Origin: Sphaerochaeta globosa str. Buddy
GTDB lineage: Bacteria > Spirochaetota > Spirochaetia > Sphaerochaetales > Sphaerochaetaceae
Reading direction: 5' to 3'
Assembly (NCBI RefSeq): GCF_000190435.1
Contig: NC_015152.1
Span: forward strand, 626,458-690,457
Length of the DNA stretch: 64,000 nt
Part shown: positions 29,999 to 44,776 of the stretch, piece after piece
Layout: each line of letters begins with the position of its first letter
How positions within the stretch are numbered: position 1 is the stretch's first letter
The notes under the pieces: model-generated
What the model saw: only the letters and a program-made list of their open reading frames with translations
Told to the model about the DNA's origin: nothing
Database searches by the model: none
Translations under genes and position numbers: made by a program

Positions 29999-30439
29999 CT
30001 AATAGTCCTGCATACCATCCCAGCTTTTTTGCTGTTCCTGCTGTAACTGTAAGACATACTCCCTATAGTCATCTTGACCAAGCTCAAGATACACATCCTT
30101 CTGCGGCAGTATTTCAAGAGGGAATTGCTCATATTCATAGCATTCGATTGAATCGGATTGTTCCGGCCACTTGCAATATACTTTCTTCCTACCCTTCGCC
30201 GTGAGCAAGGTGGAAACAGTTATTGAATCGTTGATAAGACTGATTAGTTCGGCAGCTGTTACTTCGATCACAAGCCATTCATAGTCTGGATGCCAGCTGA
30301 CGCAGATGGAAATATAATGATTACCCGCGATGTCAAGCAAGCTGAACACCAAGCGCAGTGTGTTATACGAGAGAAACGTTCGATCTAGTGAGAGACTGCC
30401 CCATGGGCTGTTTTTGAAATACTCTCCAGAATGCTCCAT
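29999..30439 (-). CDS. Hypothetical protein, downstream partner of the 30439 gene
   Basis: 146 residues. GAGGTGG stands four bases before the ATG, which overlaps the upstream stop (TAATG), so the two genes are coupled. The layout LVFSLLDIAGNHYISICVS followed by YEWLVIEVTAAELISLI loosely recalls DUF6575-type proteins. Gln/Glu-rich acidic C-terminus (LQLQQEQQKSWDG). No signal peptide. Function not known. Confidence 0.6.
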   Translation of the reverse strand: MEHSGEYFKNSPWGSLSLDRTFLSYNTLRLVFSLLDIAGNHYISICVSWHPDYEWLVIEVTAAELISLINDSITVSTLLTAKGRKKVYCKWPEQSDSIECYEYEQFPLEILPQKDVYLELGQDDYREYVLQLQQEQQKSWDGMQDY

Positions 30440-30960
30440 TATACCACCTCAAAATCTGTGAAAGGGCTCATCCCAGCAAATATCCACCAATCAACATGGG
30501 AATTCCCTTTCTTGTCAGACCAATCGTTCGTATGTGCCCAAAGACCAATTCCCTCACGGATTGTTCCAACTGCCAGCAAGGCTGGAGGATGGTGCTTTTT
30601 TAGCATGCACAACGTTTTATTCGCGTCCTTTTGAATAGTATAACAAGAAACAGACCAATCCGCCAAGCTTAAGGATGTAATACGGGTTGCCGCGTATCTG
30701 GTCCTATTCCGATCTTCCAGAATTGAGGGAAGGAAAAATGCCTGATCGATGATACCAGAAATTGCGATGCGATATACAACGCTACTCGTTTCAGAATGCA
30801 AAGATCCTGGATGCATAGTAAATAATTCAAGGAAATAACCAAAGGGAAAGCTCTCTGGGAATAATTGTCTATAGAGGCTCTTGGAAAATGAGGATTCATT
30901 GAGAATTTGAATCCATCCGACGATACTAATACCATTGATTAAGAGGAGCGAACCGTCCAA
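30439..30960 (-). CDS. Hypothetical protein; 5' end uncertain
   Basis: Up to 173 residues if the TTG at 30960 is used; that codon follows an in-frame TGA and has no ribosome site, so the natural start is probably internal or was lost to the nearby transposon. No signal peptide. Notable features are FTMHPGSLHSETSSVVYRIA and the C-terminal GLWAHTNDWSDKKGNSHVDW. I do not recognise the family. It is coupled to the next gene and lies between the liv operon and a transposase gene, which suggests an acquired pair. Confidence 0.5.
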   Translation of the reverse strand: MDGSLLLINGISIVGWIQILNESSFSKSLYRQLFPESFPFGYFLELFTMHPGSLHSETSSVVYRIAISGIIDQAFFLPSILEDRNRTRYAATRITSLSLADWSVSCYTIQKDANKTLCMLKKHHPPALLAVGTIREGIGLWAHTNDWSDKKGNSHVDWWIFAGMSPFTDFEVV

Positions 30961-31063
30961 TCAAGGGCTTCAAACGAGTAAATACGCCCGGTCCATCGAT
31001 AATCGAGTGCAAGAAGACACACCTACCCCACGATAGGCGAATGCATCATTGCTCTTTGTGGTG

Positions 31064-32176
31064 TTACGCAGTTTTCTGGATGCCCGGCAGGATGCAATAC
31101 TGCAGTATCATGATTGCAGCAAGGCACAGCACGCCGGTCATCAGGCAGTGGGAGACCTTCTCCGTCCCCCTGACCATGATCTTCGGCGGAATAAGCCAAT
31201 CCTTGAGGTGGGAGTTGGATCGTTCGACGGTCGAACGGATCCTGAACCGCTGCTTTTCAGAGGGGGAGAGGACCCGTTGCTGCTTGCGCCGCTTGTTCGG
31301 GTCGATGATGGGCATCCTGCCGTTTCCGATGATGAAGTCCTTGATGGGCTTTGCATCGTAGGCGCTGTCCATCAGCGAGTACAGGTGTTTGATCCGCTGC
31401 CCGGTCATCCGCTCCAAGGGAATCGCCGCTTGGCTGTCATGTACGTTGGCACCCGTGACGATGGTGCTGACGGGAATGCCGCTGTCGGTGACATCCAGGT
31501 GAAGCTTGTAGCCCTTCCAATAGTTGCGGTTGCCCTGGCTGTTGCGCTTGCATCCCCAGCTGCACTGGGAGTTCAATTCCTCGAATGCCTGTTCGGCAGT
31601 CTGGCCAAGTTGCTTCTGCAGAACGTTTTGCTTCTTGGTTTTCGACTCAGAGCCTTTCCTGGGCCTGCCGGGTTTCCCCCTCGGGATCACTTCCTTCTTC
31701 TTGTTCACGGCCTTCTCGCGCGCCTCGATGGCTGTGGAGTCCCGGCTGGCATGACCCACGATGCGGCCGTCCAGATAGGAGCTTACCAAGGGGCCCAGCG
31801 CCTTCTCCATGAGTTTTTGGCGTGCATGGGATGCAAATTTCCTGCTGAAGGTGGCCTCACTCGGTACGGAGGTGAACCCGCAGACCTGCCGCAGCGACGG
31901 ATCGCTGAGCAGGCGGTTGCGAAGCGAGGTGACGGTGGGAATCTTGAAAAACTGCTTGGCCAGGGCCGAACGGATCATCGCCGTCTCATCATAGCCTTTG
32001 CGCCCAAGCAGGCTTGCCTTGCCGTCGCACGCCGGCAGGAATTCCTCTAGCACCTGCAGCATCTGGATGAACGTACGGTGTTCGGCGGTCACATACCCTT
32101 CGAAAACCTCTTGGATGTCGAAAGAAATTCCGAATACCATCTGGCAACCGCCGAGGATTTCTGCTATGCTTTTCAT
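31064..32176 (-). CDS. DDE transposase, IS5/IS1182-like
   Basis: 370 residues; GGAG lies upstream of the ATG at 32176. N-terminal part resembles the DUF772-type helical domain (YDETAMIRSALAKQFFKIPT). The DDE core shows ASRDSTAIEAREK (first Asp), LMDSAYDAKPIKD (second Asp) and RIRSTVERSNSHLKDWL (Glu in the R/TVER motif). The GKPGRPRKGS insert is seen in related elements. The gene is intact. I could not find matching terminal inverted repeats or a target duplication by eye. Confidence 0.85.
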   Translation of the reverse strand: MKSIAEILGGCQMVFGISFDIQEVFEGYVTAEHRTFIQMLQVLEEFLPACDGKASLLGRKGYDETAMIRSALAKQFFKIPTVTSLRNRLLSDPSLRQVCGFTSVPSEATFSRKFASHARQKLMEKALGPLVSSYLDGRIVGHASRDSTAIEAREKAVNKKKEVIPRGKPGRPRKGSESKTKKQNVLQKQLGQTAEQAFEELNSQCSWGCKRNSQGNRNYWKGYKLHLDVTDSGIPVSTIVTGANVHDSQAAIPLERMTGQRIKHLYSLMDSAYDAKPIKDFIIGNGRMPIIDPNKRRKQQRVLSPSEKQRFRIRSTVERSNSHLKDWLIPPKIMVRGTEKVSHCLMTGVLCLAAIMILQYCILPGIQKTA

Positions 32177-32340
32177 GGACCTGCTCTCCTTCTAATCGTT
32201 TGTAGTTAATCATATTATAAAGGATTGTCAGGTCCATTTCTATACAAATATCCAAATAACGTGCTTGTTTGCAGCAAGGATGAGCTTCTGAAGCTGCCTC
32301 AAGTAGCTCAGAAGAATGAAAATATCAGGCATTTGCTATT

Positions 32341-32724
32341 TTGCAAGAGCCTCTTACAGAGAACCGCTATTCAGGCATTCCTACCATCTATAGCTCGATG
32401 AGGGAAGCTGGTAACCCGGACCCAGTTTTTGATTCATCACGTGGCCTTTTTACGGTAACCTTGTATAAACGAGCATCCTCGGTGGAGCAACTTGAAACCA
32501 TACAGGGCGAAGACCACTCCGATATTGAACAGTTGATTCTGGAATTCTGCAAGGTTCCAAGAACTAGGACTCAGCTGGCTGCTCACTTCAGTTTTAAATC
32601 GGTTTCCTATTTTTATTCAAAACATGTACTTCCTTTGATAGAGAGAGATTTGTTGGTAATGAGTAATCCCGATCGACCAAAGAGCACCAATCAAACCTAT
32701 ACAACAGCTGCAGCATTTCGTTAG
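32341..32724 (+). pseudogene. Truncated C-terminus of an AlbA_2-type ATP-binding protein
   Basis: The frame opens LTENRYSGIPTIYSSMREAG and continues PVFDSSRGLFTVTLYKR, the standard ending of AlbA_2/HATPase_c_4 proteins, followed by a winged-helix-like tail. The N-terminal DNA-binding and ATPase parts are missing, and the upstream frame is closed by TGA at 32317-32319. Insertion of the neighbouring transposase gene is a likely cause. An unrelated family member that is intact lies at 10486. Confidence 0.7.
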
Positions 32725-32763
32725 GGAGTGATACCCATCAAACATTTCTCACTCCGTTTGCAA

Positions 32764-32818
32764 AGGCTCTGCTTCGGACAAAATCCTACCGGTTGGGGAT
32801 AGTGTAAGAGCAGAGCCT
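32764..32818. other. Long-loop inverted repeat
   Basis: AGGCTCTGCT and AGCAGAGCCT are perfect complements separated by about 35 bases, between the truncated gene and the ATPase gene. It lacks a T-run on either side; a weak terminator or operator is possible. Confidence 0.4.
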
Positions 32819-32888
32819 ATTCTAATGGTAAATATTTGTTTTGAAAAGAAATAAGTACAAACTATGAAAAGTAGAGTATACTATAGGT

Positions 32889-34097
32889 ATGGAAATGCTC
32901 ATCAAAAAACGTGATCTCTACTTACATCAACTCATTGCTTACCGGGATACCCCTCTTATCAAAGTAATTACAGGCATTCGTAGGTGCGGCAAATCCATGT
33001 TGCTTGAACTATGGAAACAGGAACTGCTGTCCAGCGGTGTGCCTGCAAAAAACATCATTCATATTAATTTTGAATCCATGCAGTTCGACAACATCAGGGA
33101 TTACCGTGCTCTCTACTTCTTGGTGGAAAAGCAATTGCAATCAACTCGCAACTACCTCATGCTGGATGAGATTCAGCAGGTGATCGATTGGCAGAAAGCG
33201 GTAAACGCACTCATGGTGGACAAGGATATCGATATCTATATCACCGGTTCGAACGATAATCTGCTTTCTTCTGAACTCTCCACACTCATTACCGGTCGGT
33301 ATGTGGAGATTAAGATGTTCCCGCTCTCCTTCAAGGAGTTTCTGGATTTCAAGGAACTGGAAAAAGGTCTATCCCAGCAGGAGAATTTCGATTCCTACAT
33401 TAAGTACGGTTCAATGCCGGCAGTCTCTTCGCTCCCCTTGGATGGCCAGGTGATCGCGAACTTTTTGCAAGGAATCTACAATACTGTAATCCTCAAGGAT
33501 GTCATCCAGCGCAACGTGGTGAAGGATACCATGCTCCTGGAATCGGTGTTGCACTATCTCATGCAGAATATTGGATCCCTATTTTCCTCCAAGAAGGTCA
33601 GCGAAGCCTGCTCCATCGGGAGCCGGAAGACCAATCTTGAAGCGGTGGAAGAGTACTTGTATATGTTCGAACAGGCTTTCGTTATTTATAAAGCAGAGCA
33701 GTTCGACATCAAGAAGAATCTGATCAATCCCAATTTGGCAAAGTATTATATTGTTGATACGGGAATTTGGCATGCAATCCTCGGATATCATGCCCTTACC
33801 ACCAGTGTTTTGATTGAAAATATTGTCTATCTTGAATTGTTGAGAAGGAACTTTGAAGTTTTTGTAGGTAAACTCGATTCCAAGGAGATTACGTTCATCG
33901 CCAATCGTCACGACCTGCAGATGTATGTACAGGTTATGGCTACCTGTTCAGACGAGACCCTTCTTACTGAAAAGCTTGCATCCCTGAAGGAAGTCAATGG
34001 CACTTCCAAAAAGTTGATTCTCACTCTCGATTGCGACACCCTCCCTACCATTGAGGGAGTAGTAGTGAAAAACGTACTCGATTTTCTTTTGGAATAG
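32889..34097 (+). CDS. AAA-family ATPase with DUF4143 domain
   Basis: 402 residues. Walker A GIRRCGKSM near residue 28 and Walker B YLMLDEIQQV near residue 92 lie in the AAA_14 domain; ITGSNDNLLSSELSTLITGRY is the family's sensor region. The DUF4143 domain (about 200-350) ends with LLRRNFEVFVGK. It is common in gut and sediment bacteria, in many copies, with no established role. A TATACT box at about 32876 may be its promoter. Confidence 0.85.
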   Translation: MEMLIKKRDLYLHQLIAYRDTPLIKVITGIRRCGKSMLLELWKQELLSSGVPAKNIIHINFESMQFDNIRDYRALYFLVEKQLQSTRNYLMLDEIQQVIDWQKAVNALMVDKDIDIYITGSNDNLLSSELSTLITGRYVEIKMFPLSFKEFLDFKELEKGLSQQENFDSYIKYGSMPAVSSLPLDGQVIANFLQGIYNTVILKDVIQRNVVKDTMLLESVLHYLMQNIGSLFSSKKVSEACSIGSRKTNLEAVEEYLYMFEQAFVIYKAEQFDIKKNLINPNLAKYYIVDTGIWHAILGYHALTTSVLIENIVYLELLRRNFEVFVGKLDSKEITFIANRHDLQMYVQVMATCSDETLLTEKLASLKEVNGTSKKLILTLDCDTLPTIEGVVVKNVLDFLLE

Positions 34098-34127
34098 TGC
34101 TCACCACACAGGATGCCTATACTGCAA

Positions 34128-34847
34128 CTATGTTGCAGTATATTGTGGCAGAAGTCGTTCGAATTCTTCTCTCACTACTTCGTAGCACTCACACACCCGG
34201 GCCTCAAGCCCAGGACGATCCAACACCGTAATACAACCTCTACTATATTGGATTAACCCAGCACTTTGTAGCTTTCCTGCTGCCTCGGTCACGCCTTCAC
34301 GTCGTACACCCAACATATTGGCGATGAGTTCCTGCGTCATTCTCAACGTATTTGACGGTAATCTGTCCAGGCTGAGAAGCAGCCACCTACAGAGCTGTTG
34401 ATCGACTGTATGATGGCGATTGCAGACAGCAGTCTGCGCCATTTGGGTCAGCAAAGCCATGGTGTAGCGCAAAAGCAAATGCTGAAAAGCACCAGAACGT
34501 TTAAACTCGAGCTGCAAGTCTGCCGACGGGAGTCGATAGGCAATTCCCTCGCTTTGCACAACTGCTCGGTTGGGAACGCTATCCCCACCCATGAATAAGG
34601 CAATACCGACGATACCTTCATTGCCGACAACAGATATTTCTGCCGATGCACCATCTTCCATTACATAGAGAAGCGATACGATTGAGTCGATGGGGAAGTA
34701 TACGTATGCCAATTGCCCACCGGACTCGTACAGTGCAGAGCCGAGAGTGAGGGTGACCAGCTCAAGACGACTGGAAATGCGGTCATATTCCGCTTGGGGT
34801 AGAGCAGCGAGTAGTTTGTTTACTTTGGGATTGATTCGATCTGGAAT
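34128..34847 (-). CDS. Crp/Fnr-family transcriptional regulator, apparently with a rare ATT start
   Basis: 239 residues if started at the ATT (34845-34847), five bases after GGAGG. The first ATG/GTG/TTG codon in frame is a TTG at 34712, which has no ribosome site and would remove about 45 residues of the cyclic-nucleotide-binding-type domain, including NKLLAALPQAEYDRI that the family normally has. Beta-roll region up to about residue 150; helix-turn-helix in ELIANMLGVRREGVTEAAGKL. No Fnr-type cysteine cluster. Effector unknown. A strong promoter lies at 34890-34918. Confidence 0.75.
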   Translation of the reverse strand: MPDRINPKVNKLLAALPQAEYDRISSRLELVTLTLGSALYESGGQLAYVYFPIDSIVSLLYVMEDGASAEISVVGNEGIVGIALFMGGDSVPNRAVVQSEGIAYRLPSADLQLEFKRSGAFQHLLLRYTMALLTQMAQTAVCNRHHTVDQQLCRWLLLSLDRLPSNTLRMTQELIANMLGVRREGVTEAAGKLQSAGLIQYSRGCITVLDRPGLEARVCECYEVVREEFERLLPQYTAT

Positions 34848-34889
34848 ACAGTCCTCCCTGTATAATGTATAGTGAAATATTATAAGTAA

Positions 34890-34918
34890 ATAATAGGCTT
34901 TGATACCTTTTTTGTCAA
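34890..34918 (-). promoter_or_regulatory. Promoter of the Crp/Fnr gene
   Basis: TTGACA (34913-34918), 17 bases, TATTAT (34890-34895) on the minus strand. The spacer 34919-35088 is AT-rich and empty. Confidence 0.8.
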
Positions 34919-35088
34919 TGAAGAAACGCGAAAAATGATTGATAGTGATATTTAGTAACAGTATTTAAAAAATACTAATGGATTTTAATTTTTAAGCACT
35001 TTTTATGACAGATATTGAATTCGAGGATGGCATGTCTGCCGCTTTCGAATAAAGAGTTTCACAATTATTAAAAATTGCTGATTCAAAC

Positions 35089-35124
35089 AAAAAAGCGACG
35101 TTGAGTATGGAGTTCTCAACGTCG
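35089..35124 (-). terminator. Terminator of the first DUF3494 lipoprotein gene
   Basis: CGACGTTGAG / CTCAACGTCG with a nine-base loop, followed on the minus strand by six U residues. Confidence 0.85.
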
Positions 35125-35158
35125 GAAGTGATAGGTTCACTCTATCGGATGAAAGGGC

Positions 35159-36253
35159 CTACAGAGTAGGATTAGTCACCGTCGATTGGGCAATTGCAAT
35201 ATTGGTTTGTGCAAGTAATTTGCCGTTGATCGACGAGCCTGTGTTCATCGTAATATTTGTCTCACACAAGACAATGCCCTCGAAATGAGAACCGGTACCC
35301 ATAACCGTCTCTCCTGAAACCTGCCAGAAGATGTTCTTCGCTTGGGCTCCCCCACTGAGGATGACATCAAAATTACTGCTTATGGTGAGGTCTCCGGATA
35401 CCTGGAAAATCCAGACATCGTTTGCTCCACCGTTGATGGTAACATCCGACCCAATGGTGACTGAACTAGTCCATTTGTAAAGGCCTGGGATCAGGCTGAG
35501 AGAACCAATCTCTCCAGCACCATGGTCGAGGAAATTGGGAGTTGATCGGCCGGCTGCATCGGTATACGCAGTCATCATATCCTCAACCGCAGTAGTGAGA
35601 TTGGTGTTTGTAGGAGGTGCCATGTCAGCTGCATAGAGGAAACCAGCTACTTGGAAGGAAGTGGCATACCCGGTGGCATCGGTTTGGGAGAAGCCAGTCA
35701 TATAGGATTCTGCTGCAGGACTTATTCCTACATTGCCGGTGATGATGGAATCGGGAACGGTCGAAATTGCTGATTTTGCCAAAATTACATAGTTTGCAGC
35801 AGTTCTCAAATTCACCGGTGCGGGACCACTACCAGCGGCTGCCGTGGTGAACGTCCAGACTTTCGACTCCGAAAGGCCGGTCCCTTCAGTATTCTTTACG
35901 TCAGTCGTCAACGTTGCCGTGTAGGCTGTCGTATTGAGAAGGTTTGCCGAGGGGGCGAATATCGCTTTTTTGTTGGGAGCATCGTAGGTCACTATACCTG
36001 CAACACTTGTTGTCCCATCGCTTACCAGAAAGGTCCCGCTGGTGATGGTGGCGGGATCGACCGGTTCATTGAAGATTGCACTGATTGTCCCGTTGATGGC
36101 AGCACCCGTCGATGTATTGTCGGGGAGCGTGGAACTTACAACGGGGGCATCCAGTGTAAGGATGTCAGCTTTGCATCCAACGAAGGCTGTTGCAATCGTG
36201 AGTATTGCCAGCAGCACGATTAGGAAACGTTGCGTGATTTTTACTTTTTTCAT
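35159..36253 (-). CDS. Lipoprotein with Ig-like (Big_5) and DUF3494 ice-binding-type domains
   Basis: 364 residues. Lipobox AFVGC places the lipidated Cys near residue 27. A Big_5-type Ig domain (about 38-140; SSTLPDNTSTGAAINGTISAIFNE ... VWTFTT) is followed by DUF3494 (about 150-364) with LRTAANYVILAKSAIS, GNVGISPA, NDVWIFQVSGDL and SINGKLLAQTNIA. The repeated beta-helix turns are typical of ice-binding proteins. GGAGG precedes the ATG. First of three paralogues on this strand; it probably sits on the cell surface. An adhesin role is an alternative to ice binding. Confidence 0.88.
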   Translation of the reverse strand: MKKVKITQRFLIVLLAILTIATAFVGCKADILTLDAPVVSSTLPDNTSTGAAINGTISAIFNEPVDPATITSGTFLVSDGTTSVAGIVTYDAPNKKAIFAPSANLLNTTAYTATLTTDVKNTEGTGLSESKVWTFTTAAAGSGPAPVNLRTAANYVILAKSAISTVPDSIITGNVGISPAAESYMTGFSQTDATGYATSFQVAGFLYAADMAPPTNTNLTTAVEDMMTAYTDAAGRSTPNFLDHGAGEIGSLSLIPGLYKWTSSVTIGSDVTINGGANDVWIFQVSGDLTISSNFDVILSGGAQAKNIFWQVSGETVMGTGSHFEGIVLCETNITMNTGSSINGKLLAQTNIAIAQSTVTNPTL

Positions 36254-36384
36254 TGAAATCCTCCAGATTTCTCGTGAATGAAGGACGAGAGGCAGATGGT
36301 TTCCAAGCTATAGATGACTGGAAACAATTCCGCTTCACCTCTGCTGGAATCACAGGTTCGAAAATTGGTAGAAAGGAAAGGAGC

Positions 36385-36417
36385 CTGACGCTGAGGGGAA
36401 ATCCCGATCAGCGTCAG
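36385..36417 (-). terminator. Hairpin after the second DUF3494 lipoprotein gene
   Basis: CTGACGCTGA / TCAGCGTCAG with a 13-base loop; the following pyrimidine run is weak. Confidence 0.6.
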
Positions 36418-36462
36418 ATTCCAATGGCAAATCTGCCAGTTTACTGGAAAGAATCCAGGAGG

Positions 36463-37797
36463 CTAGAGAATCGTGGGTTCTAATACAGTCGCAGCATCAA
36501 GAGTGACCTGCGTCTGAGCCAACAACCTACCGTTGATGGATGAACCTGTCTGTAAGACGATATCGGTTTGACTTAAGATAACTCCTTCCATGTGGGAACG
36601 TTCTCCTAGCGTTGCAATGCCTGCAACCTGCCAGAAAATGTTCTCAGGTTTTGCACCTCCGGTCAGCAGGACTTCAAAGTCACTAGCCATGTTGAGGTCT
36701 CCAGATATCTGGAATATCCAAATATCATTCGCATCGCCGTTGAGGGTAAGGTCTGCACCGATTCCAACTGTGCCATCCCATTTGTAAAGGCCGGGAGCCA
36801 GTATCAATCCACCGATCGCTCCTGTACCCAAATTCAACTCATCAGGAGTTGGGCGAGCAGCTGCATCATTGTATGCAGTTATCATGTTTGCCACTGCCGT
36901 AGTGAGGTTTGCAGGTGTAGGATCTGCCATATCAGCTGCATAGACAGAGCCAGTGACCAGTGAGGAGGTAGCGTACCCGGTTGCGTCGACTAAGGCGAAA
37001 CCTGTAATGAACGTAGTAGCATACGGGCTTATTCCGAGATCACCAGTTACATGTGTTACACCTGTTGTGGAGATTAAGGTCTCAGCCAGGATGACATAAT
37101 CAGCTGCGGTACCGAGCTCTACACGAGCCAAGGGAGCTGCTGAAGTTGCAGGGAACACTGCAGTTACGACACCACTGTTAACAAGGTTGGTTGCTGTGTC
37201 TGCTCCACTTACCGTGAAAGCGTCGGCTGCAACACCGGTTGTGGTATACCCTGCTTTCGGTGCCAGGGTAATAGTCGCAGTATATACGGTTGAACCGGCA
37301 TAGGGACTGTCAGAAGGCGCCCATGTGATGGTTGCTGTATATTGGTCGGTTTCGACAACGGTCAAATCGGGGGTAACACTGCGTACAGGAGCTGTTACAC
37401 CAGTGATGGCTGCGATGTTGATTGCTACGTTCGGAGCAGTTACGGTGATCGTAAGAATTCCTTCGTAAGCGGAATCGTCATTCGCAGTCGCCTTGACGGA
37501 GACCGTACCTACTGCGGTTGCTGTGAGCAACCCTGTTGTGCTAATGGTTGCGGTTCCGCTTCCTGAAGCAACGGACCAAGTTACGCTTGCGTCGGTTGCA
37601 TCGAGGGGAAGAACAGCCGCACTCATTTGCAGCGTTTCGCCATTTGAAACGGTAATTGCATCAGCTGCTCCCGTGATAGTAATTCCCGTCACGTTAATGG
37701 GCAGTGTGGTGTCGTTTGAACACCCTACGGCAAACGAGAGAATGCCGACTATGGCAAAAAGAAACACATACTTTGTAAGATTTTTTAATGTATTCAT
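36463..37797 (-). CDS. Lipoprotein with Big_2 domain, linker domain and DUF3494 ice-binding-type domain
   Basis: 444 residues. Lipobox FAVGC (Cys near 26). Big_2 domain (about 35-117; GITITGAADAITVSNGETLQ ... VKATANDDS). A second beta domain of about 100 residues (ITWAPSDSPYAGSTVYTATI) resembles spirochaete surface repeats. DUF3494 from about 230 (LGTAADYVILAETLIS, GDLGISPYATTFITGF, NDIWIFQISGDL). GGAGG before the ATG with the same leader as the 35159 gene. Longer stalk than its neighbour. Confidence 0.88.
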   Translation of the reverse strand: MNTLKNLTKYVFLFAIVGILSFAVGCSNDTTLPINVTGITITGAADAITVSNGETLQMSAAVLPLDATDASVTWSVASGSGTATISTTGLLTATAVGTVSVKATANDDSAYEGILTITVTAPNVAINIAAITGVTAPVRSVTPDLTVVETDQYTATITWAPSDSPYAGSTVYTATITLAPKAGYTTTGVAADAFTVSGADTATNLVNSGVVTAVFPATSAAPLARVELGTAADYVILAETLISTTGVTHVTGDLGISPYATTFITGFALVDATGYATSSLVTGSVYAADMADPTPANLTTAVANMITAYNDAAARPTPDELNLGTGAIGGLILAPGLYKWDGTVGIGADLTLNGDANDIWIFQISGDLNMASDFEVLLTGGAKPENIFWQVAGIATLGERSHMEGVILSQTDIVLQTGSSINGRLLAQTQVTLDAATVLEPTIL

Positions 37798-37998
37798 TGA
37801 AATCCTCCTGATTTCTTGTGAATTAATGAAGGAGCATAGTGTTACACTCCTATCTGATCACCGGCATGAAGCCTCCAGGGGACTTCATAAACCTCCTTTT
37901 GAATTGTCACGTTGTTTCTCATAATTCCAACACGCAATGCTGAAAGCTGGTCCATTCAGAGGAACTGCTCAGAAAAACTTGGTTGCAAGAGAGGCTAG

Positions 37999-38028
37999 AG
38001 CATCGGGGATATTTCGATCCCCGATGCT
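37999..38028 (-). terminator. Hairpin after the third DUF3494 lipoprotein gene
   Basis: AGCATCGGGGA / TCCCCGATGCT with an eight-base loop; no U-run follows. Confidence 0.55.
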
Positions 38029-38039
38029 TTCGCGCGATT

Positions 38040-39986
38040 CTAGAGCGGGGTGACTGTGGCTGTGTCTAGGGTGACCTGCGTTTGGGCTAATAACTTTCCG
38101 TGAACAGATGAACCCGTCTCGAGAACTATCTGAGTCATACTCATAATGATTCCTTCAAAGTGTGCACCAGTTCCCAGGGTCACGATTCCCGCTACTTGCC
38201 AGAAAATGTTTTTGGCTTGAGCACCGTCGGTCAGCATAACTCTTGCTCCGCTGCTGGCGGTAAGATTGTCCGCAATCTGGAAAATCCAGACATCGTTCAC
38301 ACCACCTTGCAAGGTGATATCCGTTGCCATGGTGACAACCGTTTCCCACTTGTAAATACCAGGGGCAAACGTTTGTCCTCCGATGATTCCACCGGCAGTG
38401 CCGGAGACAATTGCATAATCCACTCTTCCTGCTGCTTCAACGTACGCTGCTTCCACATCCGAAATTGCTGTGGTCAATTTGGAAGGAGTAGGGGCCTGCA
38501 TGTCAGAAGCATAGATTTTACCTGTTACATAGATTGAATCTGCAGAGGTCCCATCCAGGGAAAGCGTCTCAGAGAATCCTGTCAGGTCGACAAGAGACTG
38601 TGGACTCACCCCGATATCTCCGGTGATCAGCGTATTACCTGTATTGGTGATTGCTGACTTCGCAAGAATGGCGAAGTTGGACGCAGTTCTCAGGTTGATG
38701 AGAGCCGGGCCGACTCCTGCAAGAACCGCAGAAGCAGTAGTGAATGTCCATACCTTGTCCTCTAGCATCTCAGCGCCGGCAAAATCAGTAACTGCAGCGC
38801 TAATCGTAGCAGTATAGAGTGTGTCGTAGAGCAAGTCGGTAGAAGGGTTGAAGGATACAGTTCTGTTGGCTACATCATAGGAGAGAACTCCAGAGATTTC
38901 ACTTCCAGCAGCACTCACGATGAAATTAGCGGGGATGACCACGGAATCACCATCCATGATCTCATTGAAAGAGGCTTGGATATCAGTGGTGATCGCGACT
39001 CCCGTAGCTTCATGCAAGGGGAAAGTGGAAGCTACGAGGGGACGAGCATTGACGGTAATCATCTTCGTACCTTCAACCAGTGAGTCGTCATTTGCCGTTG
39101 CTTTTACAATGACAGTTCCTTCACTCAAGCCAAGCAGCAATCCATGTATATCAATGGATGCAGTTCCTGTACCTGCTGCAACCGACCAAGTTACACTTGT
39201 ATCTTCGGCAGTAAGAGGGGCTACTGTTTTATTCATTTGCAACGTTTCATCAAGAATGACCTGGACGATGTCTCCATCGGTGGTAACCGTAATGGAAGCG
39301 ACCATCAATACCCCTTGCCTAACCGCTAATTCCACGGTTGGAACGGCCAGGTTATTGGCATTGGTAGCCCCTACGGGGAGATCACCCCAGACTGCAGTGA
39401 AGGTGTAATCAGCTGCTACCGCTGGATTGTACGTATCCGTATCCAACCAGGTCAGCGGCACATTCTTAATCTGTGCATCCTCCAAGGTCACGGAAATCTG
39501 AATCGGCAATACTGCGATTACCGCAGCTGCTTCGGCATATTGCACATTGTTGTTGGCTATATCTCCTGTTTGCGTAAGGGTTATGCCCGCGAACGATGCC
39601 ATCGGAGAGGGTAGTCCTGTATAGGCTGTTACCGTCACTTCAAGAGACCCCGTGATAGTGGATCCATCGTTGGCAGTCGCTATAACGCTAACCGATCCAA
39701 CTTCTGTCGCTGTCAACAATCCGCTTTCACTGATGGTGGCCAAACCTGTCCCTGCCTGTACCGACCAAGTGAAACTTGCATCAAGTGCATCATTTGGCAG
39801 GACTACTGCACTCATCTGCAGCGTTGATCCATCAACTACGGTGATTGCATCACCTGCTCCGTTGACTGTGATACTGGCCACACTGATCGGTGGTGTGATT
39901 TTTTCTGAACATCCCACCAGGAAAGTGAGACTGAGAAGTATCACAAAGGTGGTCAGTATTCTTAGATATTTCATTGTAGTGCTCAT
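38040..39986 (-). CDS. Long lipoprotein with two Big_2, one Big_5 and a DUF3494 ice-binding-type domain
   Basis: 648 residues, GGAGG before the ATG. Lipobox FLVGC (Cys near 26). Order: Big_2 (about 35-117), a linker beta domain (about 125-205), a second Big_2 (about 213-308), Big_5 (about 310-415; STFPLHEATGVAITTDIQAS) and DUF3494 (about 425-648; LRTASNFAILAKSAI, GDIGVSPQSLVDLTGF). The Big_5 plus DUF3494 half matches the 35159 protein and the Big_2 half matches the 36463 protein. It looks like a mosaic of the two with the longest stalk. Confidence 0.88.
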   Translation of the reverse strand: MSTTMKYLRILTTFVILLSLTFLVGCSEKITPPISVASITVNGAGDAITVVDGSTLQMSAVVLPNDALDASFTWSVQAGTGLATISESGLLTATEVGSVSVIATANDGSTITGSLEVTVTAYTGLPSPMASFAGITLTQTGDIANNNVQYAEAAAVIAVLPIQISVTLEDAQIKNVPLTWLDTDTYNPAVAADYTFTAVWGDLPVGATNANNLAVPTVELAVRQGVLMVASITVTTDGDIVQVILDETLQMNKTVAPLTAEDTSVTWSVAAGTGTASIDIHGLLLGLSEGTVIVKATANDDSLVEGTKMITVNARPLVASTFPLHEATGVAITTDIQASFNEIMDGDSVVIPANFIVSAAGSEISGVLSYDVANRTVSFNPSTDLLYDTLYTATISAAVTDFAGAEMLEDKVWTFTTASAVLAGVGPALINLRTASNFAILAKSAITNTGNTLITGDIGVSPQSLVDLTGFSETLSLDGTSADSIYVTGKIYASDMQAPTPSKLTTAISDVEAAYVEAAGRVDYAIVSGTAGGIIGGQTFAPGIYKWETVVTMATDITLQGGVNDVWIFQIADNLTASSGARVMLTDGAQAKNIFWQVAGIVTLGTGAHFEGIIMSMTQIVLETGSSVHGKLLAQTQVTLDTATVTPL

Positions 39987-40237
39987 GAATAACCTCCAGA
40001 TTATTTATGTTTCGTAATGAACATGATGTAGCACTTGTTCTGTGCCACGTATGGAGTCATCAAGAGATTTCACGTACCACCTTTCTCCAGAAAGTGTTAG
40101 CGTTATTGATTCCTTGTAGGCTCATGGATGGATCAGCTACCTAAAATATGAAAAGGGTTAGCTGACATCTTGTTTGCACGCTAAATACATACTGCACCAA
40201 GTCTTACACACTTGGTATAGTCAGTTTTCTGCTTATG

Positions 40238-40786
40238 TTAAAATCGTAATTTGGCACCTATTCCAATGAGACAGGTTTCTTTCAGATATTCCTTGTCCAA
40301 CGTGGATATATTGCTGAAGAACTCATCGACATCCGGAATCAGAAGGGTGATTCCAGGTCCGACTGAGAACCAATCGGTGATGTTGATATCGAAGCCTGCA
40401 CGAAAGTTGTAGGCGAAGTTGCTCGTCCCGCTTACTGAAGAATCGTCGGTTAGGGCTAAGAGATAGCCAGGCCCTGTTGCAACATAAGGTTCGATCAAGC
40501 CCAGGGGAGCGCGCAGCACTACTTCTGCTACTACTGAGAGATACTCCTGACCTCTGGAATAACCGGTAAGGGAGAATCCCAACCAAGGTTTCACATTCAA
40601 TTGGAATCGAAGTGTAGGTACATACTCCTCAAAATCCTGTTCCTGAAGATCGTCATAGGCATAGTTCATGACAACACCAATATCAAACTTACTTGCAGTG
40701 TCTTCTTCTGTTAGTTCTTCTGCACTGAGAAATCCAGCAAAAACAACCATTAATGCGAGAATGAGAACGAGTACCTTTTTATGCAT
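40238..40786 (-). CDS. Outer-membrane beta-barrel protein
   Basis: 182 residues. Signal peptide MHKKVLVLILALMVVFAGFLSA with cleavage near residue 22. The mature part alternates polar and aromatic residues (FDIGVVMNYAYDDL, LRFQLNVKPWLGFSLTGYSR, NFAYNFRAGFDINITDWFSVGPG) and ends in IGIGAKLRF with a terminal Phe, the usual export signal of outer-membrane barrels. An eight-strand porin-like or OmpA-like barrel is plausible. Not clearly in an operon with the lipoproteins upstream. Confidence 0.8.
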   Translation of the reverse strand: MHKKVLVLILALMVVFAGFLSAEELTEEDTASKFDIGVVMNYAYDDLQEQDFEEYVPTLRFQLNVKPWLGFSLTGYSRGQEYLSVVAEVVLRAPLGLIEPYVATGPGYLLALTDDSSVSGTSNFAYNFRAGFDINITDWFSVGPGITLLIPDVDEFFSNISTLDKEYLKETCLIGIGAKLRF

Positions 40787-41365
40787 AGTATCCCTCCGGG
40801 GATATTAATATCTTTCTGGAAGCATCCAGATCGATTAACCGCCATATAGTTGTTTGCTATAGATTTTGGAAGACTCAGTAGGCTTGGACTCAGGTCATCT
40901 GCTGCTAGAAACGTATTCTGCTCCTACCTTTTTCTTGGGGCAGGCGATACTGCGCAATGCAAGTTCATCCAGTCAATGGTATACATTGGGCTTTCGATGA
41001 AGTTGTCACTACAGTAGGGTGCTGATGATGCTGTGTTCCTGATGAAATTTGTGCCAGAGTATTGGCTGCAAGGACCTTTGCCTTGGAAACAAAACTGTTG
41101 GAAAACGTATGCCGGCTTCTGAGGGTGTTCCCGTATATGGGTTAGGTATCAGAAACTCTGGGAAGAAGCTTCATGCTCTGAAGATTCCTTCTCAACTACA
41201 ACTGTAGTGCATAAGTATATGAATGTCAATCAATAACTATCAATAACTAATAAATAAAATTAATATATATCAAAAAAAATTAGTAAAAGATAATTAACAA
41301 CAATATTTGTATATATTTAACAAATTTTAATATTTTACAGTATTTATCAGTTACTAGTTGATTGT
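40787..41365. other. Intergenic region without a recognisable gene
   Basis: The first half has ordinary composition with no convincing frame or motif. From about 41215 to 41350 it is extremely AT-rich with TAATA and ATATAT runs. No repeat element of the dispersed family is present. Confidence 0.6.
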
Positions 41366-41392
41366 TTGCTGAACATAGCTGATACTATTTGT

Positions 41393-41602
41393 ATGTTGCC
41401 AATAAAAGATGAAGTATTAACCTTGCAGGAATGTTCTGCCTATCTTAAGATTGCAGAATCAACAATTTATGTGCTCGCACGCAAAGGAAAAATCCCCTGC
41501 CAGAAGGTGGGGAGAAACTGGCGTTTCAGTAAAGACGCCCTGGATCGTTGGTTGAGAGGTGAGGATATTTTAAGTCCTCCTTCTGATTCTTCTATCCGAT
41601 AA
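41393..41602 (+). CDS. Small helix-turn-helix DNA-binding protein (excisionase-like)
   Basis: 69 residues from the ATG at 41393. VLTLQECSAYLKIAESTIYVLARKGKIPCQKVGRNWRF matches the HTH_17 family of MerR-like binders found in excisionases and small regulators. No ribosome site precedes the ATG, and a TACTAT box lies four bases upstream, so a leaderless message is possible. A TTG at 41366 is an alternative start. No integrase is near, so a regulatory role is as likely as a recombination role. Confidence 0.75.
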   Translation: MLPIKDEVLTLQECSAYLKIAESTIYVLARKGKIPCQKVGRNWRFSKDALDRWLRGEDILSPPSDSSIR

Positions 41603-41623
41603 TATAGATTCCTGCACTCAGGC

Positions 41624-41660
41624 AAAAAAACAGGGACTCTTTGGAGCCCCCGCTTTTTTA
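41624..41660. terminator. Terminator between convergent genes
   Basis: GGGACTC / GAGCCCC with one mismatch, an A7 run before and T6 after; works in both directions. Confidence 0.7.
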
Positions 41661-41729
41661 TCTATTTTAAATTTGCATTTCTTATCTCACCTGGAATGCA
41701 GTGTGAGTAATACCGTATACATAGAGGTT

Positions 41730-42512
41730 TTATTGTGCTAGGTATGATATTGCTACGCTTGCACTAACGGCCCTTCCCTGGGCATCGAATATATCCAGCA
41801 ATCGTAGATCGACAGATATATAGATTGCTTGTAAGAATTGGACTGGCCGTAGTCTCAATCCCATATTGAGCATTCCTCGGGATTTTGCATTGCCACCGCT
41901 TGGGGATGCGCTGTACGAAGCGTTTCCGAAATCAATCAGGAAATCGATTTTTCGATTGAGTGCTTTCGGTAGGAAGGGCATCTGATACCCCATTCCAAAA
42001 TCGATGTTGCTTGTCAAAGGACCGTCAAAGGTGTAGCCGATCAGAAGGGTGGTTTTTGAAGGCCACTCGATGAACGAACTGTTGAAGGTTGAAGCCAAAT
42101 AGAGTTGGGCAGCCAAGTTTGTGGTAGTTGTTGCATTTAATAGTTGTCCAACCACACCGAATGTCAAGGAACTATTCTGCCCCCGAGCGATTCTCCACTT
42201 CCCACCCAACAGTACATCGACCTCATTTGAAATATCCACAGCCAGGCTCATTTCCAGATTGCTGGCAAATCCCATTTGGATGTAGGGCACATGAGCATAG
42301 GTACCGGTAAAGATTCCAGAGTATCCGGTTGTGATGGATGTTCTTCTTCCACTCCAAGCCGTTTCGGCGCTGGGAATGACAATGTAGCCGTTTGCACCGC
42401 TGATCGTTGCATTGCCGGCATCTGATACTTGACCTGAAGGAAAATCGAGTGCAGAAAGAAAAACCGTCGTCAGCAACAGAAGGCTTATGCATAGATTTTT
42501 TTTCATTTGCAT
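41730..42512 (-). CDS. Outer-membrane beta-barrel protein
   Basis: 260 residues from the ATG at 42512, six bases after AGGAGG. Signal peptide MQMKKNLCISLLLLTTVFLSA. Mature part: GANGYIVIPSAETAWSGRRTSITTGY, then repeated amphipathic strands (LTFGVVGQLL, GLRLRPVQFLQAIYISVDLRL). It resembles the uncharacterised spirochaete barrel family that starts with a VIPSAET-type motif. The downstream end VSASVAISYLAQ lacks a terminal aromatic residue. Function unknown. Confidence 0.75.
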   Translation of the reverse strand: MQMKKNLCISLLLLTTVFLSALDFPSGQVSDAGNATISGANGYIVIPSAETAWSGRRTSITTGYSGIFTGTYAHVPYIQMGFASNLEMSLAVDISNEVDVLLGGKWRIARGQNSSLTFGVVGQLLNATTTTNLAAQLYLASTFNSSFIEWPSKTTLLIGYTFDGPLTSNIDFGMGYQMPFLPKALNRKIDFLIDFGNASYSASPSGGNAKSRGMLNMGLRLRPVQFLQAIYISVDLRLLDIFDAQGRAVSASVAISYLAQ

Positions 42513-42551
42513 GGTGATCCTCCTATCGAATTGCAATTCTGCATTTCGGAT

Positions 42552-42758
42552 TTAGGATCGTCCACCCATCAGAAGTATCAGACTGGTTACAACGGCTGCC
42601 GCCCCACCAATAAAATACCACAGAGTGTCTTTTGTTAAGCCCATTCCTAAGAAGGTGCGAACTGAGTCGCCCAATGAACGGGTGGCAAATATTCCACCAA
42701 CCACAAGCGCCAGTCCTCCGAAAAACAAGATGATTCCGAGTATTTTTGAAATGCCCAT
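42552..42758 (-). CDS. Small two-helix membrane protein, DUF3185-like
   Basis: 68 residues from the ATG at 42758, eight bases after GGAG. Two membrane helices (LGIILFFGGLALVVGGIFA and WYFIGGAAAVVTSLILLMGG) around a short loop SLGDSVRTFLGMGLTKDTLW. The layout, with a D-S-x-x-x-x-F loop and TKDTxWYxxGG, fits DUF3185, widespread with no known role. It may be co-transcribed with the barrel gene 40 bases downstream. Confidence 0.75.
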   Translation of the reverse strand: MGISKILGIILFFGGLALVVGGIFATRSLGDSVRTFLGMGLTKDTLWYFIGGAAAVVTSLILLMGGRS

Positions 42759-42844
42759 AGGTTCTTTCTCCAAAGTTTTTGTATCCCGAGATAAACTCGG
42801 AAGGTCCAGTTTGCGTTTTACATAACTAACGGGGATTTTTTTTT

Positions 42845-42862
42845 CTTGGCAGTTCTGCCAAG
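42845..42862. promoter_or_regulatory. Perfect palindrome upstream of the DUF3185-like gene
   Basis: CTTGGCAG-TT-CTGCCAAG, next to a run of nine T. On the minus strand the hairpin is followed by A residues, so it is not a terminator for that strand; an operator or leader hairpin is more likely. Confidence 0.45.
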
Positions 42863-43113
42863 GAATTAGTATCCCGTATTTTGAGTATAATCCTGGGGGA
42901 AAATTGGGTCTGTACGCAAACGAACATAGCAGAAGGATTTTTGAATTATTTTGATACTTGTTGATTAATGAGATCTATGATTGTTTGGTAAGGGGCAGAG
43001 GAATGCAATATACGCAGAGAAAACGGGTATGAGTATGAAGAAGAATGGATGCTGGAATGCTCTTTCCCTGAAGCCTGACGCACGGTAAATCTGCACAGTC
43101 GCTATAGTATGAT

Positions 43114-43141
43114 AAGAGCCGCTGATTATTCAGCGGCTCTT
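43114..43141. terminator. Hairpin downstream of tRNA-Cys
   Basis: AAGAGCCGCTGA / TCAGCGGCTCTT with a four-base loop, seven bases past the tRNA 3' end. Confidence 0.65.
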
Positions 43142-43147
43142 ATAAAA

Positions 43148-43218
43148 GGTGCCAATCGGATTCGAACCGATGCATCAAGGTTTTGCAGACCTTTCCCTTA
43201 CCGCTTGGGTATGGCACC
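43148..43218 (-). tRNA. tRNA-Cys (anticodon GCA)
   Basis: 71 bases on the minus strand. Acceptor stem GGTGCCA / TGGCACC, D arm CCC-AAGCGGTAA-GGG, anticodon arm AAGGT-CTGCAAA-ACCTT with GCA, and T arm ATCGG-TTCGAAT-CCGAT all pair perfectly. CCA is not encoded. The variable loop is five bases and the D loop is short, both normal for tRNA-Cys. Confidence 0.95.
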
Positions 43219-43299
43219 ATGCATTAGGCATTGTTGACCATACCAGTTTTCTTTTTGATAATCAAGGGGGAATCTGTAGGATTTTCACAAGGAGTTTCT

Positions 43300-43878
43300 A
43301 TGATCAAGCGAATACTTGTCGTTCTTTGTTTAGGTATCATTTTTCTGGCGCCTTTGTGTGCTTTTGGCAATGAGCGATGGTTGAGTACCAGTTTTACCGC
43401 CGATTATCACTACGGCAGTGCCTTGCCTGTAGATACTTCTTTAGGCCTGGATATCTCGTACTTCTTGTTCAGCCCCTTCCATGGCTCGGGCTTTGTAACC
43501 AAGGTGTCCACCACCTTCTCGAATTCGATCACGCGCATGGCCTTTTTTCTTGGGCCGGCTTACCGCTCAGTCCTGGCCGGGGGAGTGGAGGGCTATATTT
43601 CCTTTGGGCCTTCCTTTACCGATATCGAGAATCAGGTTCCCGGTGGCAGTGAGGAAATGCAACTTGGGGTTGGCTTGGACGTGGGCTCACGTTTTAGGTT
43701 TTCCAGTGCTGGTTCCCTTGATATGGCACTTGTTTTGGGCATTTTTGCTGATGTTTCGCTCCTGCATATCGTGGATGGGGAGTATCTAAGAGGGTGGACG
43801 GGGAATGTCGTCCCCTATGTCGGTTTCTCCTTTTCTTCAATTGTTCAGTATGGATTTCCTTCCTACACCATATATTGA
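43300..43878 (+). CDS. Small outer-membrane beta-barrel protein
   Basis: 192 residues from the ATG at 43300, five bases after AAGGAG; the longer frame has no ribosome site. Signal peptide MIKRILVVLCLGIIFLAPLCAFG. Strand-like segments GFVTKVSTTFSNSITRMAFFLGP and MQLGVGLDVGSRFRF; ends GFSFSSIVQYGFPSYTIY. Length and strand pattern fit an eight-stranded barrel. No family recognised. Confidence 0.7.
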   Translation: MIKRILVVLCLGIIFLAPLCAFGNERWLSTSFTADYHYGSALPVDTSLGLDISYFLFSPFHGSGFVTKVSTTFSNSITRMAFFLGPAYRSVLAGGVEGYISFGPSFTDIENQVPGGSEEMQLGVGLDVGSRFRFSSAGSLDMALVLGIFADVSLLHIVDGEYLRGWTGNVVPYVGFSFSSIVQYGFPSYTIY

Positions 43879-43986
43879 ACATTCTTGAACGTTTTTCATC
43901 TGTTAGTTGGACGTTTATTGTTGACATCTGAATGTTTTTGATTGTATTATGGCATTGTAACGCTTTAAAAGTACAAAAACATTCAA
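43875..43986 (+). promoter_or_regulatory. Promoter and repeated operator half-sites of the DeoR gene
   Basis: TTGACA (43921-43926), 18 bases, TATTAT (43945-43950). TTGAACGTTTTTC (43885-43897), TGAATGTTTTTGA (43929-43941) and the reverse complement AAAAACATTCAA (43975-43986) share one core; a partial copy TTGAACATTC lies at 43875. One site overlaps the spacer of the promoter, as expected for autorepression. Confidence 0.65.
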
Positions 43987-43996
43987 GGAAGTATTC

Positions 43997-44776
43997 ATGT
44001 CAACCATTCCTGCCAGCAGACAGCAATACATTCTCAACCTGATCAAGACTGAAGGTACGGTTACGGTCAGTCAGCTGGCAGACGAACTGGGAGTGAGCGA
44101 ACTCACCATCCGCCGCGACCTCGACCAGCTGGAGAAGAAAGGGTTGGTTGAACGTACGCACGGTGGAGCGACGGCAAGAAGAAACCTCCCGGTTGAACCC
44201 GATTACCTGCAGAAAGCATCAGAATTGCCCAAGGAAAAAGAGTCCATCGGACAAGCTGTAGCACAGATGATTGAGGAAGGGGACACGCTGTACATCAACA
44301 GCGGTTCCACCACGTTCGAGGTTATCCGCTCGGTAGCCGCACTGCAGAAGAAAGTGACCATAGTTACCAACAACATCGATGCAATTTGGCTGTGCAAGGA
44401 AAGCGAACACATCCGACTCATTCTTGCAGGCGGTGTATACCGCAGCCGAAGTCACTCCGTCTCCGGTTCTCTTTCTTCAATTCTGGTAAGTCAGATATAT
44501 GCCAACAAAGCGATCATCGGCGTCGATGGATTCTCTCCCTCTGCAGGTCTCACCACCCCCATTCTGGAGGAGGCCGAGACCACCCGTGCCATGATCGAAC
44601 ATACCGTAGGGACGGTGATCGTGGTGGCGGCATCGAACAAGATAGGGGTGGTTTCAAACTTCAAGACTGTTGGTCTTGATCAGGTCGATGTGTTGGTCAC
44701 CGATGAAAAGGGCGGTGAGATAGTCAAGCAAATGGAGATCCCTGAGGGTCTTACAATACAAATAGCAACTACATAG
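43997..44776 (+). CDS. DeoR-family transcriptional regulator
   Basis: 259 residues. N-terminal winged helix with VSQLADELGVSELTIRRDLDQLEKKGLVERTHGGA, the classic DeoR signature. C-terminal sugar-phosphate sensor domain has DTLYINSGSTTFEV and VDGFSP. AAGGAAG precedes the ATG. The two genes directly downstream encode an Ldh-family dehydrogenase and malic enzyme, so it probably controls that operon and itself. The inducing phosphorylated ligand is not known. Confidence 0.88.
   Translation: MSTIPASRQQYILNLIKTEGTVTVSQLADELGVSELTIRRDLDQLEKKGLVERTHGGATARRNLPVEPDYLQKASELPKEKESIGQAVAQMIEEGDTLYINSGSTTFEVIRSVAALQKKVTIVTNNIDAIWLCKESEHIRLILAGGVYRSRSHSVSGSLSSILVSQIYANKAIIGVDGFSPSAGLTTPILEEAETTRAMIEHTVGTVIVVAASNKIGVVSNFKTVGLDQVDVLVTDEKGGEIVKQMEIPEGLTIQIATT

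Follow-up and report, generated by a model that had tools for sequence, protein, structure and literature searches.

A cluster of three DUF3494 lipoproteins in Sphaerochaeta globosa with heads altered at the center of the ice-binding face

What do three lipoproteins with an ice-binding-type domain do on a bacterium of a kind reportedly grown at 35 °C? The question is raised by a window of 64,000 nucleotides from Sphaerochaeta globosa str. Buddy (NC_015152.1), in which three neighboring genes on the minus strand (35159-39986), here named A, B, and C, encode lipoproteins ending in a DUF3494 domain, the head. The initial annotation found ice binding odd for a likely moderate-temperature anaerobe and suggested that the ligand may be something else. 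The genus is indeed described as mesophilic and non-motile, with isolates from anoxic habitats, freshwater sediments among them (PMC6284720, genome note). Our analysis supported the doubt about ice: at the central b-face, each of the three heads differs from proven binders. We see about an even chance that the cluster encodes surface-anchored, adhesin-like proteins built on an ice-binding scaffold, of which A, B, and C bind ice weakly or bind something else, while paralogue E, encoded elsewhere in the genome, may bind ice.

The heads were identified by a Pfam profile search. PF11999 (DUF3494) matched A, B, and C with E-values of 5e-73, 7e-75, and 1.3e-72; the scores of 244-252 bits were far above the cut-off of 28.7, and profile positions 1-207/208 were covered. 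The profile had no match in any of 14 control genomes. All three reading frames are intact, and lipobox cysteines were read from the sequence at Cys27 of A (FVGC), Cys26 of B (AVGC), and Cys26 of C (LVGC). These three open reading frames, with lipoboxes and C-terminal DUF3494 domains, lie exactly where the initial annotation had placed them, and its count of one, two, and four beta domains in the stalks of A, B, and C held in this genome, the domains being immunoglobulin (Ig)-like (Table 1). The heads are mutually 51-58% identical. None reached the 400-bit threshold of the NCBIfam equivalog NF045625 (IBP_CFB), scoring 242.0 (A), 217.9 (B), and 206.6 bits (C).

A structural model of A (predicted local distance difference test score, pLDDT, 84) contained a long helix (residues 216-234) and a discontinuous beta-solenoid. 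It matched FfIBP of Flavobacterium frigoris (4nu3) with Z 36.8 and a root-mean-square deviation of 1.4 Å over 223 residues, and 5b5h, 7dc5, and 3vn3 with Z 36.4-36.6. Proven ice binders were 49-54% identical to the solenoid of A, with Z >30. The competence pilin ComZ (6qvi), a solenoid neighbor with another role, gave Z 14.0 over 194 residues. The predicted head of A thus carries the fold of proven ice binders, and the domain had been rightly called ice-binding-type. The model of C was confident only for Big_5 and the head, with pLDDT <50 over most of residues 24-306.

In DUF3494 proteins the b-face is the ice-binding site; its outward residues stand in columns 1, 2, 4, and 6 ('out-out-in-out'), and the repeats of FfIBP read T-A/G-X-T/N (PMC7277481). 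The small-residue column 2 has been named the ice trough, and sequences from frozen sediment, subsurface, and rock are reported to hold more Ser, Thr, and Gly there (PMC12337378). Six rows of this face were read in a single alignment that combined 134 different domains with four PDB domains. By origin, 36 domains came from Sphaerochaetaceae loci, 91 from named loci, and 7 from other phylum-search loci. Out of >590 matching stretches, the named loci represent the best 80, with a bias to the query, and counts among the 91 are no census. EfcIBP served as a check of the register: its rows gave S, T, and A, as PMC12337378 reports for column 2. The strands of the model of A also coincided with the register (E333-336 and E351-354).

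In the row order b1, b6, b5, b4, b3, b2, column 2 reads ANNEDS in A, LQDIDT in B, and AQQINV in C, against GAGANT in FfIBP, ASAATS in TisAFP7, and AAGGSA in paralogue E. Residues A, G, S, or T fill one of six positions in B and C and two in A, compared with five or six in FfIBP, TisAFP7, and the PDB domains 9li0 and 9lhs, and all six in E. The fewest small residues of the whole set (1 to 4 of 6, mostly 1 or 2) were counted in A, B, C, and their orthologues, and the most (6/6) in E and its orthologues. The small (A/G/S) column 2 of type-1 ice-binding proteins is therefore found in E and is absent from A, B, and C; it is no strict requirement, as LeIBP and AnpIBP also deviate from it. The center of the face is altered, column 2 carrying Asn, Gln, Asp, Glu, or Ile; in head C, Gln619 and Gln637 form a Gln ladder. 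Column 4, in the same order, reads SATVTT in A, STVTNG in B, and TTVTTT in C, with Thr, Ser, or Asn at 4, 4, and 5 of the six positions, as is typical of the type. The initial annotation had made its reading depend on a flat, Thr-rich face, and that face is only half lost: the three proteins retain most of the Thr/Ser in columns 1 and 4, and what has gone is the small column 2.

Row b6 was polar (NQDEKRH) in 27 of the 36 Sphaerochaetaceae domains, 8 of the 91 named domains, and 4 of the 7 others. Rows b5 and b6 were both small in 77/91 named domains, in 1/7 others, and in only 5/36 Sphaerochaetaceae domains, all of them gene E. The polar-b6 domains among the named 91 include myxobacteria or other soil Deltaproteobacteria (L097, L111, L129, L133). 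Proven binders with a readable row b6 have A, S, or G, and none has Asn, Gln, or Asp. Among orthologues, row b6 is N/Q/R in 10/10 for A, Q/D in 6/6 for B, and Q in 5/5 for C. Changes to Tyr on the b-face lower activity, as in TisAFP7 A214Y, and AnpIBP S153Y and T156Y cut it to 17% (PMC7277481). With column 2 altered, little or no ice binding is the most likely expectation for the heads of A, B, and C. Given its all-small column 2, E would be the most likely ice binder of the six paralogues.

On the favored reading, the lipidated cysteine would anchor each protein in the envelope, and the Ig-like domains would hold the DUF3494 solenoid away from the cell, after export and display on the outer membrane. 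The exposed b-face would be the binding site, as in all characterized members, and the heads would probably attach the non-motile cell to a different surface or to a polymer. Several points weigh against this. Freshwater sediments can freeze, and the outer-membrane location is predicted from a single feature, the lipobox. LeIBP, a weak but real ice binder with a hysteresis of 0.35 °C (PMC7277481), has Phe at b5 and Asp at b4, and AnpIBP, another ice binder, has Leu at b5; these active proteins indicate that a bulky column 2 does not exclude ice binding. Column 2 of Flavobacterium fryxellicola has Gln at b4 and Asp at b3. In A and B, moreover, the b-face columns exceed an average column in variability, lying at the 94th to 99th percentile when compared with random column sets, and this would fit relaxed constraint as well as a new ligand.

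Some of these points favor ordinary ice-binding lipoproteins, with which cells that meet winter sediment ice are held to it or tame it, column 2 only setting a plane preference or a lower activity. The close likeness of the solenoid of A to proven binders, the retained Thr/Ser columns, and the bulky residues of active LeIBP and AnpIBP all agree with such a role, and Ig-stalked DUF3494 proteins have been read as ice tethers (PMC9957290). We regard this as a serious possibility, though a lesser one, as it leaves a b6 residue found in no proven binder with a readable row, in a mesophilic genus in which 17 of 26 genomes lack a PF11999 match. Another explanation is that A and B are decaying or relaxed paralogues whose b-face is free of ligand selection, serving as passive envelope spacers. 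This was judged from orthologue groups A to F, picked by hand from the tree and the alignment, with L019, L010, L020, L021, and fragments left out. For A, B, and D, conservation failed to prove that the b-face is in use, column 2 being more variable than random sets; the same held for column 4 in A. Column 2 of C, E, and F was weakly conserved (P 0.13-0.23, against random column sets unmatched for exposure). As a same-column control we used a 49-row Bacteroidota clade. At b1, b6, and b5, column 2 had an entropy of 1.25 in A, against a mean of 0.46 (largest 1.14) in 2000 draws of 10 from that clade, with similar mean identities (0.77 and 0.74). Judged by these sequences, the column 2 constraint seen in Bacteroidota is absent in A, and the entropy gives no hint of what took its place. 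We nevertheless consider relaxation improbable: frames and gene order are intact across genera, the b6 replacements are confined to N/Q/R/D with no random drift, and the altered column of C is nearly invariant in 5/5 orthologues, all close relatives.

The genome is a single contig of 3,316,466 bases with six PF11999 genes, three of them outside the cluster (D, E, and F). A quick tree of the heads, with SH-aLRT (Shimodaira-Hasegawa-like approximate likelihood ratio test) support only and the two central columns left out, grouped A with Big_5 proteins from other Spirochaetes in a starred set of 11 rows, next to Bacteroidota and Deltaproteobacteria. B, with 6 rows (98*), and C, with 5 rows (100*), belonged to a separate starred set of 21 rows; E and F, too, fell with B and C, apart from A. 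This placement of A apart from the others indicates that the cluster joins at least two DUF3494 lineages, and a recent tandem triplication was rejected, A and B/C being in separate starred sets. To explain the polar pair, this tree requires at least 10 changes. A broader proposal would be that DUF3494 heads turned several times from ice to a non-ice ligand by exchanging the ice trough for a ladder of amide and acidic side chains, in Sphaerochaetaceae A, in B, C, or both, and independently in soil myxobacteria (L111, L129, L133); we think this rather unlikely and put it forward tentatively.

PF11999 matches were present in 9 of the 26 genus genomes, in 16 of 139 family genomes (14 above the cut-off), and in 8 of 392 genomes across a sample of the phylum. 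In another Sphaerochaeta, two weak adjoining PF11999 pieces lie in different frames (G106:C86:6294-6568; L022, L031), perhaps a decaying copy. The C-B-A order is kept in G091, G108, and G121, and likewise in G107, in which the contig stops within A; in G122, B-A lies where a contig ends. In G091 the flanks are collinear, running ATPase, CRP-type regulator, A, B, C, barrel-like protein, and the open reading frame at 41730. With these neighbors and the single contig, contamination of the assembly is not likely.

The stalks are less stable than this order. B is 442-445 residues long in G108/G107, 837 in G091, and 901 (start uncertain) in G121; C has 454 in G108 and G107, 650 in G091, and 750 in G121. 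The unnamed repeat of B (window 37142-37425) belongs to no true Pfam family, drawing weak Epimerase hits without a passing stretch. It occurs once here and in G107 and G108, in five copies in G091 and G121, in at least four in G122, and also once in F and its orthologues (repeat loci L041, L047, L050). In G107 and G108, C lacks the middle domains and has Big_2 and Big_5 only. The Big_4-like match of C is weak (E 0.0036, below its own cut-off); in the G121 orthologue it is doubled and passes with two stretches. The longest stalk had been taken for a fusion of the other two. Part of this stood, in that the first Big_2 of C is 67% identical to that of B and its Big_5 41% identical to that of A; the rest did not, since C lacks the repeat of B and has two extra domains.

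The initial annotation also likened the lengths to adhesins reaching different distances. Selection for graded reaches, with one and the same head held out at different distances, would suit the one, two, and four stalk domains of this genome. B, with five repeats, is the longest in G091/G121, however, and B and C are about equal in G107/G108; the heads also differ from one another and belong to different clades. As orthologues gain and lose whole stalk domains and the rank order shifts, a conserved set of reaches is not supported. We rejected this explanation on the differing rank order and consider it very improbable; stalk length probably drifts by repeat gain and loss.

Table 1. Positions of the cluster genes, flanking genes, and paralogues elsewhere in the genome (aa, amino acids)
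Feature	Position	Strand	Description
Gene A	35159..36253	-	364-aa lipoprotein; Big_5 stalk aa 36-137, DUF3494 head aa 148-360
Gene B	36463..37797	-	444-aa lipoprotein; Big_2 aa 36-107, unnamed ~93-aa beta repeat aa 125-218, DUF3494 aa 227-439
Gene C	38040..39986	-	648-aa lipoprotein; Big_2, Big_4-like, Big_2, Big_5, DUF3494 aa 431-647
CRP/FNR-type regulator	34128..34712	-	HTH_Crp_2 E 2.6e-16; adjoins A
Small outer-membrane beta-barrel-like protein	40238..40786	-	upstream of C; OMP_b-brl weak, E 0.0007, below cut-off
Paralogue D	L007:5124-5903		259 aa, without stalk
Paralogue E	L008:3778-5493		571 aa, canonical small column 2
Paralogue F	L009:5511-7535		three Big_2 in stalk

The CRP/FNR-type protein is a candidate regulator of the cluster. 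Its gene has the same place in G091 and G121, and within the genus was found only in G000 and G091 (2/26 genomes, both cluster-bearing). It was not found in the cluster-bearing genomes G107 and G108 (93% and 88% complete), so the link is not strict. Its frame and homology extend upstream of the listed TTG (34128-34964), with no ATG, GTG, or TTG start before 34712; an ATT at 34847 stands five bases after GGGAGG, and both are also present in the G091 orthologue. The gene likely starts upstream of the TTG, possibly at this rare ATT. One TTGACA-17-TATTAT site lies ahead of it (minus strand, 34918-34890). Promoters (6, against a mean of 10) and terminators (7 against 6.4) were not above shuffles, and an Rfam gathering-score search of 30000-44000 found no RNA element except tRNA-Cys.

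The barrel-like protein is a syntenic neighbor, in the same position in G091 and G121. Just upstream of F, a fragment (G000:C1:740698-740817, L160) shares 73% identity with the C-terminus of this protein over 40 residues. As the full gene stands upstream of C, the relic suggests that the F locus originated as a copy of the cluster's upstream end. Long plus-strand frames antisense to B and C (37493-37924, 38160-38537, 38920-39408, 39652-40017) are open in G091, three of them 76-88% identical, and are most likely a coding-strand shadow, not genes. Further away in the window, a DDE transposase (PF01609, E 9e-14) at 31064-32176 (-) adjoins a 127-residue piece at 32341-32724 (+), probably a gene remnant, with matches to the ends of a recG-C/Fic-like transcription factor.

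In the collection of papers covered, our literature search found none joining DUF3494 with Spirochaetes, or Sphaerochaeta with an ice-binding or antifreeze protein, and none on a Cryosericum ice-binding protein. Four PDB entries released in 2025 (9lhn, 9lhs, 9lhr, 9li0) show DUF3494 proteins from Candidatus Cryosericum odellii; 9li0 and 9lhs have Gln at b4 and Ala at b5/b6. DUF3494 proteins are reported from the tropics and hot springs and may bind various substrates, and the question of a ligand in ice-free places has been asked (PMC7783341). Non-ice ligands have therefore already been proposed in print; the point of note here is the altered ice face of the cluster. One mesophilic genome carries a canonical face (E) and three altered ones (A, B, and C), all on lipoproteins, a clean within-genome contrast. 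Should A, B, and C bind ice after all, the column 2 rule by which activity is predicted from metagenomes would be mistaken.

Among known systems, the cluster is like FfIBP (4nu3, 4nu2), TisAFP, LeIBP, and ColAFP in the solenoid, the long helix, and the capping region, as modeled for A, and in the largely kept Thr/Ser columns. It differs from FfIBP and the type-1 proteins by its lipobox and Ig-like stalk and by a column 2 that is not small. Ig-like domains also precede the head in SfIBP_1 of Shewanella frigidimarina (head 6bg8) and in the Big_5-Big_5-PF11999 architecture from Arctic sea ice, described as a cell-to-ice tether (PMC9957290); head A is 31% identical to 6bg8, and the cluster has a lipid anchor and a mesophilic sediment host. 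MpIBP (MpAFP) of Marinomonas primoryensis likewise carries its ice-binding head far out on many Ig-like extenders (PMC5014055), but its ice-binding domain is unrelated and, with about 120 repeats and 1.5 MDa, it is comparable only in how it works. The combination of lipoprotein, Ig-like stalk, and DUF3494 head is already known, and it is frequent among the Bacteroidota of this analysis. Bacteroidota lipoproteins with Big_5 and DUF3494 (such as L062, L064, L081, and L084) have the same order of parts as gene A, the lipobox cysteine is at least 90% conserved (set A2, 24 sequences), and their DUF3494 genes also lie adjacent to each other (L060, L065, L071). The difference is in column 2, where b6 and b5 are Ala/Gly in 42/49 and 43/49 rows of the Bacteroidota clade and A has Asn/Gln.

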